Origin: Microlunatus capsulatus
Lineage (GTDB): Bacteria; Actinomycetota; Actinomycetes; Propionibacteriales; Propionibacteriaceae
Length of the DNA: 64,000 nucleotides
Direction: 5' to 3'
NCBI RefSeq assembly: GCF_017876495.1
Contig: NZ_JAGIOB010000001.1
Span: 1,550,001-1,614,000, forward strand
The position numbers and the translations under genes were made by a program. Under the pieces are notes generated by a model that was not told the origin of the DNA, made no database searches, and saw only the letters and a program-made list of their open reading frames with translations. Numbering within the stretch: the stretch's first letter is position 1; every line of letters begins with the position of its first letter. Shown here in pieces: positions 183 to 5,629 of this stretch.

Positions 183-1122
183 GGTGGCCCCGCAGCGCGT
201 GCAGGTCGACGCCGGCCCAGCGGGGGCCGACGCCGTGCAGGGCGACCAGCCGCAGGTCGTCGTCGGCGTCGGGCGCGGGCCGGACGACGACGTCGACCTC
301 CAGCCGGTCCTCGGCCAGGCCCTCGGCCAGCCCGGCGCCCCACTCGACGACGGTGACGGCGTCGGCCAGCGTGGCGTCGAGGTCGAGGTCGTCGAGCTCC
401 TCGGCGCTGTGCAGCCGGTAGGCGTCGACGTGCACCAGCGCGGGCCCGTCGCCGCGCGCGGGGTGGATCCGGGAGAGCACGAAGGTGGGCGAGATCACCG
501 GCCCGGCGGTGTCGAGGCCGCGGCCGATGCCCTGGGTGAGGGTCGTCTTGCCCGCGCCGAGGTCGCCGGTGGCGATGAGCAGGTCGCCGGGCCGCAGCAG
601 CGCCGCCAGCCGCTCCCCCAGGTCCTGCATGGCCGGGCCGGTGGGCACGACGACGACGGCGGGCAGGTCCTTGGCCAGGATGACGCCGTGCGGCGCCGGC
701 CGGTCGACGACGTAGCCGCGGTGCTCCCAGAAGGTGATCAGCTGGCCGAACTCCGCGCGGGCGAAGAGCTCGACGCGCCGGTGGCCGGCCCGGGCGGCCA
801 GCTCCTCGGCGGCGTGCACGAGGGCGGAGGCGATGCCGTGCCGCTGGAAGTCGGGGTGCACCGAGACCCGGGCGAAGGTGACCAGCCCCGGTCCCGTGGG
901 GACCACGAGCAGGGCGCCGGCCGGGCGGCCCGCCACCTCGGCGTAGACCCCCGTCCCCGAGGCCAGCGTGGCGGCGACCGACGCGGGCGTCTCGGTGATG
1001 GCGGTGGAGGGCGGGTCGAGCGGCGGCCGGGCCCCGAAGGCGGCGTGGATGACCTCGACCATCCCGGCGGCGTCGTCCTGCTCCGCCACCGAGACCACGA
1101 GTTCAGATACCGAGGTGCTCAC
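175..1122 (-). CDS. tsaE: Bifunctional GNAT acetyltransferase / TsaE ATPase
   Basis: This is a fusion of two domains. Residues ~5-155 form a GNAT N-acetyltransferase fold, with the acetyl-CoA loop seen as HPDFQRHGIAS. Residues ~160-315 form TsaE, with the Walker A GDLGAGKTTLTQGIG, the SPTFVL segment and the VEWG motif. TsaE supplies the ATPase of the tRNA t6A complex. The GNAT half could be the RimI-like partner that travels with tsaB/tsaD, but its substrate cannot be read from sequence. I place the start at the GTG at 1122 (315 residues), not the upstream ATG at 1164: the longer start lies inside the terminator hairpin 1137-1180, and a TAGCAT -10 box (1131-1136) sits 8 nt upstream of the GTG. 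The 3' end overlaps tsaB. Confidence 0.9.
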   Translation of the reverse strand: MSTSVSELVVSVAEQDDAAGMVEVIHAAFGARPPLDPPSTAITETPASVAATLASGTGVYAEVAGRPAGALLVVPTGPGLVTFARVSVHPDFQRHGIASALVHAAEELAARAGHRRVELFARAEFGQLITFWEHRGYVVDRPAPHGVILAKDLPAVVVVPTGPAMQDLGERLAALLRPGDLLIATGDLGAGKTTLTQGIGRGLDTAGPVISPTFVLSRIHPARGDGPALVHVDAYRLHSAEELDDLDLDATLADAVTVVEWGAGLAEGLAEDRLEVDVVVRPAPDADDDLRLVALHGVGPRWAGVDLHALRGHRG

Positions 1123-1136
1123 CGGCGGACATGCTA

Positions 1137-1180
1137 GTGCCCCGGTCCCGACGTGGTTCTCCACGTCCGGACCGGGGCAC
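1137..1180. terminator. Strong hairpin between the helicase gene and tsaE
   Basis: A 20-bp inverted repeat with one mismatch and a TTCT loop. The outer arms are GTGCCCCGGTCC and GGACCGGGGCAC, and the inner arms are ACGTGG and CCACGT. It begins 31 bp after the stop of the helicase gene on the minus strand, so it most likely ends that transcript. There is no long U tract, as is usual in GC-rich actinobacteria. Confidence 0.8.
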
Positions 1181-1211
1181 GGTGCAGCAGGCGCCCGGGT
1201 GGGCGCGCCGG

Positions 1212-4202
1212 TCAGCGCTCGAAGCTGCGGCGCTGGGGGCGACGGCCCTCGTAGCCACCGGAGCGGGAGCGCGGGCCGCGCGAGCCGCGGTCGCCCGAGG
1301 GGCGGCGGTTGCTGCGCGGCGGCGCGATCAGCCGCTCGTAGTCGGCGGCGCTGACGGCCACCCCGGTCGGCCGGACGGCGCCCGTGACGTCGGCCACGGC
1401 CGCGTCCCCGGGAGCACCGGTCAGCGACTGGGGCTTGACGCCGGCCTGGGAGGTGAGCCGGGTCATCTCGCGACGCTGGTGCGGCAGCGCGAGGGTGACG
1501 ACGACACCGGTGCCGCCGGCGCGGGCGGTGCGGCCGGCGCGGTGCAGGTACTCCTTGGGCCCGGCGGGCGGGTCCACCTGGAGCACGAGGCCGACCTCGT
1601 CGACGTGGATGCCGCGGGCGGCGACGTCGGTGGCCACCAGGACGGGCAGGTCGCCCTCCTTGAAGACCGAGAGGATCCGGGTACGGGCGCCCTGGGTCAG
1701 GCCGCCGTGCAGCGCCCCGGCCATGACGCCGGCGTCGCGCAGCTGCTCGGCGACGCGGTCCGCGCCGCGCTGGGTGCGGACGAAGACGACGGTGCGGCCC
1801 GGGCGGCCGGCGATCTCGGCGGTCAGGGTGGCCTTGTCGTGCGGGGCCACGTAGACCAGGTGGTGCGCCATGGTGGTGACGCTGGCCTGGCCGGAGTCGA
1901 CCTCGTGGGTGACCGGGTTGCTCAGGTAGCGCTTGACCAGCCGGTCGATCGCCCCGTCGAGGGTCGCGGAGAAGAGCATCCGCTGGCCGCCGGCCGGGAT
2001 CGTGTCGAGGATCTGGGTGACGGCCGGCATGAAGCCGAGGTCGGCCATGTGGTCGGCCTCGTCCAGGACGATGGTCTCGACGCGCGTCAGGTCGACGGCG
2101 TTCTGGTCCATCAGGTCGATGAGCCGGCCCGGGGTGGCGACGACGACGTCGACGCCGCGCTGGAAGGCGCGCAGCTGCGGGGTGTAGGACATGCCGCCGG
2201 CGATGAGGACCGTCGAGAGGCCGAGGGTGCGGGCCAGCGGGGTCAGCACGTCGGTGACCTGCATGGCCAGCTCGCGGGTCGGCACGAGGACCAGGCCGCG
2301 GGGGTGCTTGCTGGTGCCGCCGGCGAGCCGGGCGAGCATCGGCAGGCCGAAGGCCAGCGTCTTGCCGGAGCCGGTCTGGCCGCGGCCCAGGACGTCCCGG
2401 CCGGTCAGCGCGTCGGGGATGGTCGCGGCCTGGATCGGGAAGGGCGCGGTGATGCCGCCGGCGGTCAGCGCGCTGACCAGCGAGGGCGGGAGACCGAGGC
2501 TGGCGAAGTCGCCGTCCGTGGTCGTCGGGGTGGTGGCGGTGGGCTCGGTGATGGTCACGTGCTGGTGCTCCTGCGGGGTGTCGCTGCGGTCGAGCGGACG
2601 GGTGTCGGGCTGGGGGGTGGTGACGGGCACCTCGTCGGCGACGGCGGCCGGGGCCTCGTCGGTGACGGCCGTGGCCTCGTCGGTCACGAGGGCCTCGTCG
2701 GTGACGGCGGCCGGGGCCTCGTCGGTGACGGCCGTGGCCTCGTCGGTCACGAGGGCCTCGTCGGTGACGGCGGCCGGGGCCTCGTCGGTGACGGTCGGCG
2801 CCTCGTCGGTCAGGACGGGGGCCTCGTCGGTGACGGGGGCCTCGTCGGCGGGGGCCGGCGTCGGCTCGACGAGGACGGGTGCCTCGTCGGAGCTGGCGGC
2901 GGCAGCGGCTGCGGCGGCCGCGCGCTCCTCGCGGTGCGCCGCCGTCCGGGGACGGTCGGGGCGCTCGGTGCGCTCCGCCCGCTGCTGGGCGGAGCGCTCG
3001 TCGCGCTCCTCGAAGGCCTGACGGCGGTCGTCCCGGTTGTCCGCCGGACGCTCGCTGCGCTCGCCGTACGAGGAGCGACGGTCGTCGCGGTTGTACGCCG
3101 GACGGTCGCTGCGGTCCCCGGAGGAAGGGCGACGGTCGTCGCGGTTGTAGGCCGGACGCTCGGTCCGGTCACCGTACGAGGGGCGACGGTCGTCCCGGTT
3201 GGAGGCCGGGCGCTCGCTGCGCTCGCCGTACGAGGGCCGGCGGTCGTCACGGTTGTAGGCCGGACGCTCGGTCCGGTCGCCGTACGAGGGGCGACGGTCG
3301 TCGCGGTTCGCAGCCGGGCGACGGTCGTCACGGTTGTACGCCGGACGGTCGCCGCGGTCCCCGGAAGGGCGGCGGTCGTCCCGGTTGTAGGCCGGGCGCT
3401 CGGTCCGGTCGCCGTACGAGGGGCGACGGTCGTCGCGGTTGTACGCCGGGCGCTCGCTGCGCTCGCCGTACGAGGGGCGACGGTCGTCACGGTTGTAGGC
3501 CGGACGCTCGGTCCGGTCGCCGTACGAGGGGCGACGGTCGTCGCGGTTCGCGGCCGGGCGACGGTCGTCCCGGTTGTACGCCGGGCGCTCGCTGCGCTCG
3601 CCGTACGAGGGGCGACGGTCATCACGGTTGTACGCCGGACGCTCGGTCCGGTCGCCGTACGAGGGGCGGCGGTCGTCACGGTTGTACGCCGGACGCTCGG
3701 TCCGCTCGCCGTACGAGGGGCGACGGTCGTCACGGTTCGCGGCCGGGCGACGGTCGTCGCGGTTGTACGCCGGGCGCTCGGTCCGCTCGCCGTACGAGGG
3801 GCGACGGTCGTCCCGGCCCCCGGCGGGGCGACGGTCATCCCGGTTGTAGGCCGGACGCTCGCCGCGGTCCCCGGAGGAGGGGCGACGGTCATCCCGGTTG
3901 TACGCCGGACGCTCGGTCCGCTCGCCGTAGGAGGGGCGGCGGTCGTCGCGGTTGTAGGCGGGGCGCTCGGTGCGCTCGCCGGAGGACGAACGGCGGTCGT
4001 CCCGGCTGTAGGCCGGACGCTCGCTGCGCTCACCCGAGGGGCGGCGGTCGTCGCGGCCCTCGCGACGGGGGGTGGGGCCGGACTGGCCGCCGCGGCGACG
4101 GGGGTCGTGACCCCGGTCCTTCCGCTCGGCAGCGCTCCAGCGCTTCTTCTCCGTGCCGTCCGCCTTGCGGCTCTTGGGCGCGGGCGTGCTCTTGGCAGGC
4201 AT
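1212..4202 (-). CDS. DEAD-box RNA helicase with long repetitive disordered N-terminus
   Basis: A 996-residue protein whose helicase core occupies only roughly residues 560-930. The core has a Q motif, Walker A GQTGSGKT (~605), the DEAD box in VLDEADHMADLGF (~710), SAT in MLFSATLD and motif VI HRAGRTARAG. The C-terminal tail is rich in Arg, Gly and Ser, as in RNA-binding helicase tails. The first ~560 residues are unusual: a lysine-rich start, 22 copies of RDDRR in ~18-residue repeats, an Ala run and an acidic TDEA repeat. Such helicases unwind mRNA and ribosomal RNA; a role in cold adaptation or RNP granules is inference. I place the start at MPAKSTP (4202), preceded by a GA-rich site, not at the longer in-frame ATG at 4262. 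A TAGTCT -10 box at 4351-4356 would give a ~145-nt leader. It sits between tsaE and the hydrolase/alr genes. Confidence 0.93.
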   Translation of the reverse strand: MPAKSTPAPKSRKADGTEKKRWSAAERKDRGHDPRRRGGQSGPTPRREGRDDRRPSGERSERPAYSRDDRRSSSGERTERPAYNRDDRRPSYGERTERPAYNRDDRRPSSGDRGERPAYNRDDRRPAGGRDDRRPSYGERTERPAYNRDDRRPAANRDDRRPSYGERTERPAYNRDDRRPSYGDRTERPAYNRDDRRPSYGERSERPAYNRDDRRPAANRDDRRPSYGDRTERPAYNRDDRRPSYGERSERPAYNRDDRRPSYGDRTERPAYNRDDRRPSGDRGDRPAYNRDDRRPAANRDDRRPSYGDRTERPAYNRDDRRPSYGERSERPASNRDDRRPSYGDRTERPAYNRDDRRPSSGDRSDRPAYNRDDRRSSYGERSERPADNRDDRRQAFEERDERSAQQRAERTERPDRPRTAAHREERAAAAAAAAASSDEAPVLVEPTPAPADEAPVTDEAPVLTDEAPTVTDEAPAAVTDEALVTDEATAVTDEAPAAVTDEALVTDEATAVTDEAPAAVADEVPVTTPQPDTRPLDRSDTPQEHQHVTITEPTATTPTTTDGDFASLGLPPSLVSALTAGGITAPFPIQAATIPDALTGRDVLGRGQTGSGKTLAFGLPMLARLAGGTSKHPRGLVLVPTRELAMQVTDVLTPLARTLGLSTVLIAGGMSYTPQLRAFQRGVDVVVATPGRLIDLMDQNAVDLTRVETIVLDEADHMADLGFMPAVTQILDTIPAGGQRMLFSATLDGAIDRLVKRYLSNPVTHEVDSGQASVTTMAHHLVYVAPHDKATLTAEIAGRPGRTVVFVRTQRGADRVAEQLRDAGVMAGALHGGLTQGARTRILSVFKEGDLPVLVATDVAARGIHVDEVGLVLQVDPPAGPKEYLHRAGRTARAGGTGVVVTLALPHQRREMTRLTSQAGVKPQSLTGAPGDAAVADVTGAVRPTGVAVSAADYERLIAPPRSNRRPSGDRGSRGPRSRSGGYEGRRPQRRSFER
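2641..2800 (-). repeat. 63-bp in-frame tandem repeat coding TDEA-type acidic units
   Basis: Units 2641-2703 and 2704-2766 are identical over 63 bp, with a further partial copy after them and looser copies on to ~2890. Each unit codes 21 residues built from VTDEAP, VTDEAL and VTDEAT. It lies just N-terminal to the helicase core and gives a strongly acidic linker next to the basic-rich repeats. Confidence 0.9.
3015..4058 (-). repeat. ~54-bp in-frame tandem repeats coding NRDDRRPSYGER-type units
   Basis: About 22 RDDRR cores are spaced by roughly 18 residues, the common unit being YNRDDRRPSYG(E/D)R(T/S)ERPA. Some units are shortened (RDDRRPAAN). The variants R(T/S)ER and PS(Y/S)G alternate in a higher-order pattern, as expected from unequal crossing over. 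The array is in frame within the helicase gene. Confidence 0.95.
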
Positions 4203-4350
4203 GCATCTCACTTCTGTCCGGCGGTGCGGACCTTGGCTCAGGCACGTCAACGCCCGAACCATCGCAAGATGTGGTGGGAAGACGAGCCTCGGTGCGCCGC
4301 TCCGTCGTGGAGCGCGCGATGGGCATGGCCGGCAAACGGCCAGAAGAACA

Positions 4351-4356
4351 AGACTA
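4351..4356 (-). promoter_or_regulatory. Possible -10 box (TAGTCT) of the helicase gene
   Basis: TAGTCT on the minus strand, about 150 bp before the helicase start. No good -35 is visible. The leader it would make includes a small hairpin (TGGCCG...CGGCCA). Long leaders are common on stress helicase genes, so this is a plausible regulatory region only. Confidence 0.35.
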
Positions 4357-4423
4357 CCATCCGGACGGCGGCTCCCCGACCACCCGAGCTCTGCGATGAT
4401 CCCCGGCCCTCGCGGACCCGGGA

Positions 4424-5629
4424 TCAGCCGAAGCGCCGGCGGACCCGCTCGACCAGCTGGTCGATCACCTGGTCGAACACCGCGTGGTGCTCGAGAATTC
4501 CCATGTGCCCGCAGTCGGCCACCCGGCGGGTGTCGGCGTCGGGCAGCAGCTCGACGATCGCGTCCGTGCGGGTGACCGGGGTGATCAGGTCGTCCTCGCC
4601 GCCCACGACGGCGGTCTCGACCGTGCTCAGCACCGAGAAGGCCGCGTACTCGTCGAGCTCGGCGAAGCCCGGGTAGAAGTCGGCGACCACCTCGAGCGAG
4701 GTCTGGGCGAGCATGTCGGACATGAACTCGACGTAGCTGACGGGGACGTCGGAGCCGAAGGCCATCGCCCGGGTGACGACGTGGCTGAGGTCCGAGCCCG
4801 CCCGGCGGCCCCGCTCGACCAGCTCGGGCGCCTTGTTGAGCGCGGCCAGCAGCGGCGGCGCCGCCCGGGAGAAGACCCGGCCCGGGAGCCCGCGGACCGG
4901 GGAGTAGTCGGCCATCTCCCCCGCCGCGGTGGAGAAGAGCGCGACCCCGCGGACCCGGTCGCCGAACAGCTCCGGCCGCTCCTGCGCGAGGTGCATGATC
5001 GTCATGCCGCCCATCGAGTGCCCCACCAGCACCACCGGCCCCGGGCCGGCCACCTCCTCGAGCACCTGGAACAGGTCCTCCGCCAGCTGGGGGACGCGGC
5101 AGCGGGCGACGTCGGAGCGCCCCGAGCGGCCGTGCGATCGCTGGTCGTAGAGGACCGTGCGGACGCGTCCGCGCAGGTGCAGGCGCTGGAAGTGCCAGCA
5201 GTCCAGGCTCAGCGCGTAGCCGTGCACGAGGACGACGGTGAGGTCGTCGGGCGCGCCTCCGGCCACCTCGTCCACCTCGGTGTGCAGCACGACGCCGTCG
5301 GGGGTGAGCACGTCGGGACCGGGCGCGCGCAGGGAGAAGAAGGGCGGCTCCTCCTCGCCGCGCTGCTCCTCGACCTCGTGGCGCTCGTAGATCCGCCGCG
5401 TGACCAGGCGGCGCTCCAGCTGCAGGCCGGCCGCGACGCCGCCCGCGGCCAGCGCCGCGAGCCCGGCCAGCAGACCGGCGCCCGTGGCCAGCCGGCCCGG
5501 GGTGACCAGCGGAGCGGTCCGCCGCGGCGGGGCCGCCAGCCGGGCCAGCAGCGCGGCGGGCCCGCTGGCCGGCAGCACCGGCCGCAGTCCTCGCCGGCCG
5601 GGCGGACGCCGCGGCGGGAGGACGGCCAT
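4424..5629 (-). CDS. Membrane-anchored alpha/beta hydrolase
   Basis: A 401-residue alpha/beta hydrolase. It has the oxyanion HG in VLVHGYA, the nucleophile elbow GHSMGG, an acid in GGEDDLITP and the catalytic His in DCGHMGILEH. A hydrophobic segment around residues 45-68 after a basic N-terminus suggests an N-terminal membrane anchor. Its ATG shares one base with the alr stop (TGATG), so it is cotranslated with alr. An alpha/beta hydrolase between alr and tsaE is a common actinobacterial arrangement, but its substrate is not known. Confidence 0.85.
   Translation of the reverse strand: MAVLPPRRPPGRRGLRPVLPASGPAALLARLAAPPRRTAPLVTPGRLATGAGLLAGLAALAAGGVAAGLQLERRLVTRRIYERHEVEEQRGEEEPPFFSLRAPGPDVLTPDGVVLHTEVDEVAGGAPDDLTVVLVHGYALSLDCWHFQRLHLRGRVRTVLYDQRSHGRSGRSDVARCRVPQLAEDLFQVLEEVAGPGPVVLVGHSMGGMTIMHLAQERPELFGDRVRGVALFSTAAGEMADYSPVRGLPGRVFSRAAPPLLAALNKAPELVERGRRAGSDLSHVVTRAMAFGSDVPVSYVEFMSDMLAQTSLEVVADFYPGFAELDEYAAFSVLSTVETAVVGGEDDLITPVTRTDAIVELLPDADTRRVADCGHMGILEHHAVFDQVIDQLVERVRRRFG

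Follow-up and report, generated by a model that had tools for sequence, protein, structure and literature searches.

An arginine-enriched mixed-charge tail of variable length precedes the core of a DEAD-box RNA helicase in Microlunatus capsulatus and related Propionibacteriaceae

The stretch analysed here, called the window, comprises 64,000 nucleotides of the Microlunatus capsulatus genome (contig NZ_JAGIOB010000001.1, positions 1,550,001 to 1,614,000). It contains, on the minus strand, a gene for a DEAD-box RNA helicase in which approximately 560 residues precede the helicase core. The original prediction, made from the letters alone, described this N-terminal tail as a succession of 22 RDDRR repeats, an alanine run and a TDEA repeat, and the reading frame, the Pfam matches and the repeat counts agree with that description. 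Comparison with related genomes, presented below, identifies the tail as a maintained feature of the enzyme whose length is turning over.

The RDDRR motifs are located between residues 50 and 390, spaced by 17 or 18 residues with interspersed steps of 9 residues. Tandem Repeats Finder reports a period of 54 at 3025-4056 (score 524), a period of 240 at 3075-3737 (score 1090) and a period of 63 at 2630-2841 (3.3 copies, 93%); the tandem repetition of the N-terminus is far beyond chance. There are nine occurrences of TDEA, and two of the 63-bp units encoding it, those at residues 472 and 493, have the same DNA sequence. Thus, the identical 63-bp units and near-identical units of about 54 bp noted originally are both found. 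The possibility that another protein of the genome carries the repeats was rejected, as all six matches fell in the helicase gene and the next best match elsewhere had an E value of 0.17.

The head of the protein (residues 1-45) is basic, with a net charge per residue (NCPR) of +0.18. In the repeats (residues 46-432), NCPR is +0.057 and the fraction of charged residues (FCR) 0.517; these residues include 111 Arg and no Lys, Arg and Asp being coded by CGN and GAC/GAT. Charges in the repeats are better mixed than in shuffled sequences (mixing statistic 0.019 versus 0.079, z -5.1), and the same applies to residues 46-563 overall (z -4.3). The sole net-acidic block is formed by residues 433-563 (NCPR -0.22 to -0.23). 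Many charged residues, Arg in excess of Lys and near-balanced charges are the marks of an arginine-enriched mixed-charge domain, and the composition of residues 46-432 has all of them. It is not that of an SR-related protein, for which Ser plus Arg amount to at least 70% (PMC9479744): the maximum in any 20-residue segment of residues 46-432, a length of our choice, was 55%. Judging from its composition, the N-terminal tract is probably disordered, and the mixture of Arg, Tyr and Asp would, as had been predicted, suit RNA binding or condensation.

The window was compared with the nearest sister species (G006), in which the helicase core is 99% identical in protein and 95% in DNA and the 12 kb around the gene are collinear. 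The sister protein has 13 RDDRR motifs, 851 amino acids and no acidic array, versus 22 motifs and 996 amino acids in the window. The predicted change in length therefore holds between sister species, the level covered by a comparison of one genome per species, as opposed to strains. Repeat units differ by 0.144 within and 0.183 between the two species, and 23 of 28 units have their nearest neighbour in their own genome, a pattern that turnover through slippage or unequal exchange would produce. Among 16 full-length units, the silent difference (pS) is 0.348 and the amino acid-changing difference (pN) 0.086; leaving out the RDDRR codons gives 0.304 and 0.118, respectively. Since the units differ mostly at silent sites, the DNA is not merely slipping and the encoded residues are being kept.

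Both Pfam domains of the DEAD-box RNA helicase superfamily score above their gathering values between residues 589 and 896 (DEAD, 2.2e-43, 148.3 bits versus 26; Helicase_C, 8.2e-26, 90.9 versus 23.5). The translation of this complete DEAD-box core contains FPIQ, GQTGSGKT, PTRELA, TPGR, DEAD, SAT, ATDVAARG and HRAGRTARAG, eight strings that we take to be the named helicase motifs. The best NCBIfam models are those of CshA, the degradosome helicase (NF053631/NF007882, a CshA/RhlE-type pair; 316.3 bits versus a cut-off of 646), and RhlE (302.2 versus 743). The CsdA/DeaD models give 275.4 and 266.7 bits for cut-offs of 890 and 989, with a match limited to residues 563-911, and the SrmB and DbpA models score as well, at 57% of their cut-offs. 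The original prediction, which set the protein beside E. coli CsdA and RhlE, is supported insofar as CshA and RhlE-type models score best, but no equivalog cut-off is reached. The best matches in the Protein Data Bank (PDB) are Hera ("heat resistant RNA dependent ATPase") and CshA. From these matches, the enzyme is placed broadly among the DEAD-box RNA helicases of CshA/RhlE type, with no assigned equivalog. It shares with that type the two-domain core and the top NCBIfam and PDB matches; it differs in scoring less than half of the cut-offs and in that the models, matched from profile position 1 or 3, cover the core only and have no counterpart of the long N-terminal tract. The two best-matching DEAD-box paralogues in the same genome (52% and 47% identity) have open frames of 544 and 584 amino acids and hence no room for such a tail.

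To survey the family, 67 orthologues were assembled, 18 from genomes of the genus and 49 from the 54 other Propionibacteriaceae genomes with a match; matches on a par with the second paralogue (G028, G039 and G113) and partial matches (G074 and G085) were left out. Of the 117 family genomes, 52 gave no match at E <= 1e-120. In 57 of the 67 orthologues, a head motif leads into an Arg/Asp-rich tract of 89 to 521 residues (median 247), the longest being that of the window. Not counted among the 57 are two frames that run off their contig (G032, G046), six proteins with no head by the loose pattern described below (G018, G024, G049, G063, G069, G076) and two with tracts shorter than 80 residues (G013, 18; G087, 71). 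With charged tracts common among Propionibacteriaceae orthologues, the idea of repeats found in this genome only was rejected, and the tail, which is present in Intrasporangiaceae too, is not peculiar to this protein as had been supposed.

From the matches listed in a contig scan, 80 loci were retained, 16 of which have an Arg/Asp-rich tract by a rule, applied also to the tree labels, that looks at the last 250 residues before the core; the window is labelled "none" in the tree because these residues are mostly acidic array and not Arg/Asp repeats. Among the matches listed, the named tract-bearers are Tessaracoccus, Acidipropionibacterium, Propionibacterium, Pedococcus, Phycicoccus, Knoellia, Janibacter and Mobilicoccus, and no tract was seen in Actinomadura, Nocardia, Rhodococcus, Streptosporangium, Geodermatophilus, Blastococcus and Streptomyces. 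Phycicoccus sp. Soil802 has no tract and is set apart from the other Phycicoccus rows by the tree; three loci (L027, L068, L084) are truncated by a contig end where the core starts or close by, so they give no verdict on a tract. A quick tree built from 58 cores places the tail-bearers mostly in two adjoining groups, Propionibacteriaceae and Intrasporangiaceae/Dermatophilaceae, and the tail label changes six times versus 19.5 in shuffles. Rows without a tail (family f18) sit in the common branch of these two groups. The charged tail occurs in at least two families of actinobacteria. The f18 orthologues (L136, L138-L153) have N-termini without RDDR, mostly short or leaning towards Asp/Glu.

Two short motifs recur at the ends of the tail. 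The head has a consensus of roughly PKS[FHY]KADGTPKKRW[ST]AAERAARGHxPRRxGG. Its strict pattern matches 57 of the 67 orthologues, with 0.04 of 67 expected from shuffles, and, among the 57 proteins with a measured tract, 56 (the miss being G035); the loose pattern, used to define the 57, matches 59 of 67, with 6.3 expected in shuffled N-termini. No second copy of the head exists in the window genome (next best match, E 0.6), and none was found at E <= 1 on the plasmids searched. Of the 67 proteins, 51 have the other motif, DxM[SEDANTQ]W, no more than 60 residues from the core (0.01 of 67 in shuffles); 11 of the 18 orthologues from the genus, including those of the window and its nearest sister, lack it.

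Between the motifs, the sequence differs widely among the 57 while its bulk chemistry is steady. FCR is 0.535±0.066 and NCPR +0.022±0.021; Arg makes up 0.962 of Arg plus Lys in the tracts versus 0.750 in their cores, an excess that is larger in the tracts despite GC bias. Charges are more finely mixed than in shuffles in all 57, with z below -2 in 46. The original prediction took blocks of charge as a pattern favouring phase separation or RNA binding, which does not hold for the repeats, and charge segregation was rejected as the signature of the tail: the only block is the acidic array, and the sister lacks it. With some 132 charged residues to a tract, signs assigned at random would produce a spread in NCPR of about 0.047, larger than the one seen; this is suggestive of a held charge balance, with the proviso that shared descent and local motifs lower the random figure. 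In the window, NCPR is about -0.01 for the whole tract including the acidic array and +0.057 for the repeats alone, both inside the family range, and we suggest that the newer array may counter the charge that repeat expansion brings.

We propose that the Arg-enriched mixed-charge tail gives the helicase multivalent contact with RNA, probably within ribonucleoprotein (RNP) condensates, a proposal to which we give a roughly even chance. Both the contact with RNA and the condensation are what we infer from the sequence. The basic head and the Arg/Tyr-rich repeats would touch RNA through numerous weak interactions (Arg-phosphate, Arg-Tyr, Arg-Asp), which would raise the local concentration of RNA for the RecA core. 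The tail would probably let the helicase enter or seed RNP condensates, and the ATPase cycle would keep these fluid. Selection would hold the flanking motifs and the bulk chemistry (about half charged, near-neutral, Arg and not Lys, finely mixed), with slippage or unequal exchange of the 54-bp and 63-bp units altering the length freely. The Escherichia coli helicase DeaD undergoes phase separation in vitro; in cells, it shares its location with SrmB and RhlE (PMC12758526).

Several points weigh against this proposal. No match at E <= 1e-150 exists in 2 of 20 genus genomes, and the tract is short in G012 (89 residues). In one member of the genus, G013 (L099), the head is kept with nearly no tract, 56 residues standing ahead of the core. 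Tyr varies from 0 to 6% across the tracts and is below 1% in 22 of the 57, which leaves no general role for Tyr-Arg stickers. The 57 values are not independent, through shared descent, and high GC content favours Arg and Asp codons. Finally, in neutral polyampholytes, fine mixing of the charges makes electrostatic condensation harder than a blocky arrangement does. The G013 protein is in effect a natural near-deletion of the charged tract.

Basic tails serve as RNA anchors in other bacterial DEAD-box proteins, and the head and repeats could likewise tether the core to rRNA or mRNA with no granule being formed. We regard this as possible, if on the unlikely side: a basic head and a basic C-terminal tail flank the enzyme, and near-neutral fine mixing argues for solubility, yet a pure tether is expected to be net positive and the tracts of the 57 orthologues carry almost no net charge. 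It is improbable that the tract is a swollen soluble linker between two docking sites with a partner each, the head (K..RW[ST]..E[RK] type) and the pre-core motif. The recurrence of both under strict patterns while the tract between them turns over would fit such an arrangement; against it stand the lack of the pre-core motif in most genus orthologues, the window included, and the fact that a mere linker would need no 96% Arg among its basic residues.

Neutral drift appears highly improbable. Under this explanation, GC-rich repeats slip in a tolerant N-terminus and the composition reflects GC bias, as the wide variation in repeat number, the acidic array with its DNA-identical units and absence from the sister, and the nearly tract-less G013 would allow. 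A pN/pS of 0.20-0.39 among repeat units argues otherwise, as do the similar bulk charge across the 57 orthologues and an Arg-over-Lys excess beyond that of the core. Also doubtful, and only slightly less so, is an elaborate version of the condensate proposal, not described before, in which the tail would be a modular switch: a conserved head docking a partner, a charge-balanced Arg/Asp spacer with its length tuned by repeat turnover, a DxM[SED]W gate ahead of the core in most of the family, and a structured mRNA leader (see below) by which the helicase would detect demand for RNA remodelling and set its own level of synthesis. The 57 measured helicases form a natural series, with one core, tails of 89-521 residues that vary in length and repeat make-up, and similar charge balance. 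The series makes selection on disordered charged tails testable in non-pathogenic bacteria and allows comparison with eukaryotic mixed-charge domains.

Charged disordered N-termini are known on DEAD-box proteins such as LAF-1. Ddx3 and Ddx4 resemble the window protein in joining a DEAD-box core to a charged disordered N-terminus whose net charge is conserved in evolution, that of full-length animal Ddx3 clustering near +3 (PMC10935546); the window protein differs by its tandem RDDRR and bacterial head and has no FG/RG motifs as in Ddx4. Arg/Ser-rich domains have been linked to DEAD-box helicases in bacteria (PMC9479744), where, as here, Arg-rich low-complexity sequence is joined to DEAD-box/Helicase_C domains; the two are distinguished by the Ser plus Arg content given above. 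Regions that are Arg-enriched, charge-mixed and of low complexity occur on RNA-related proteins (PMC12629991); unlike those, the window tract is bacterial, has Tyr/Pro/Asn/Ser spacers and uses CGN and GAC/GAT codons versus purine-rich ones. Thus, the general kind, Arg-rich domains on bacterial DEAD-box helicases, is known, and the tail is no new class of system. The original prediction allowed that the repeats might be a common family feature already described; they are common, but the literature searched held no description of such a helicase tail, the nearest being the general report PMC9479744.

The insertion domain of Rho is disordered and variable in length, and in Actinobacteria it is R/K-rich (PMC10284900). 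It is comparable as a variable disordered insert on an RNA helicase, in a different enzyme and between two N-terminal domains, not ahead of the core. Rho of the window genome (L208) has RDGQQ-type tandem repeats, a hand-chosen 149-residue part having an NCPR of +0.054 and no Lys, and its RNase E/G (L211) has charged low-complexity N- and C-terminal arms. R/D-rich or charged tails thus recur among RNA enzymes of this genome.

The coordinates of the locus are collected in Table 1. A mechanical open reading frame caller puts the start of the gene at 4262 (1016 amino acids); the start at 4202 is supported since the conserved head begins there and AGAAGTGAG sits directly upstream. A plus-strand frame at 1131..4676 (1181 amino acids), antisense over the whole gene, was rejected as a gene and read as the mirror of a GC-rich gene, a reading with no further test behind it.

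Table 1. Positions, in window numbering, of the helicase gene, its parts and the candidate leader elements.
Feature	Position	Strand	Remark
DEAD-box RNA helicase gene, 996 amino acids	4202..1212	-	frame open throughout
Conserved basic head, residues 1-42, ..PKSxKADGTxKKRWSxxERxxRGxxPRRRGG..	4077..4202	-	
Arg/Asp/Glu/Tyr mixed-charge repeat tract with 22 RDDRR, residues 50-407	2982..4055	-	
Alanine run of 9 residues, residues 428-436	2895..2921	-	
Acidic DEA/TDEA array, residues 438-523, two DNA-identical 63-bp units	2634..2891	-	
Helicase core, residues 564-915	1458..2513	-	core motifs readable in translation
Short basic C-terminal tail, residues 916-996, NCPR +0.10	1215..1457	-	
Candidate leader element GGGCGTTGACGTGCCTG, hairpin 1	4239..4255	-	in 10/16 genus leaders, once in genome
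Candidate leader stem 2, GTCCG-loop-CGGAC, just before Shine-Dalgarno-like AGAAGTGAG	4216..4231	-	weak in window, z -0.5

Upstream of the gene, a candidate two-hairpin mRNA leader spans 4203-4255 on the minus strand. It may regulate the helicase, and an autoregulatory role would be a guess. A known Rfam leader was considered and rejected, the two matches in 900-5000 being far below gathering scores, and a simple scan of 4180-4480 gave no promoter or terminator. Leaders of the Intrasporangiaceae type showed no clear alignment with each other. The sequence of stem 2 is variable. Folded alone, the stem 2 stretch forms a stem in all 12 leaders folded (of 18), with a mean z of -2.4 versus mononucleotide shuffles; that of the window is weak (p 0.29) and folds differently in a longer piece. 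Three of nine consensus pairs of stem 2 show two-sided changes, in a poor MAFFT alignment whose covariation term is not in favour. The element of hairpin 1, GGNCG[TC]TGACGT[AG]CCT, occurs in the genus leaders counted in Table 1, out of the 16 extracted, and in L108, from another genus of the family; it is absent from the other six, some of which have other hairpins there. The genome-wide count, allowing up to one mismatch, compares with three occurrences of a reversed control pattern. In the 11 sequences of hairpin 1, 94.5% of 55 cells pair and four of five pairs are invariant; the fifth shows two-sided changes in three sequences and is unpaired in three, including the window.

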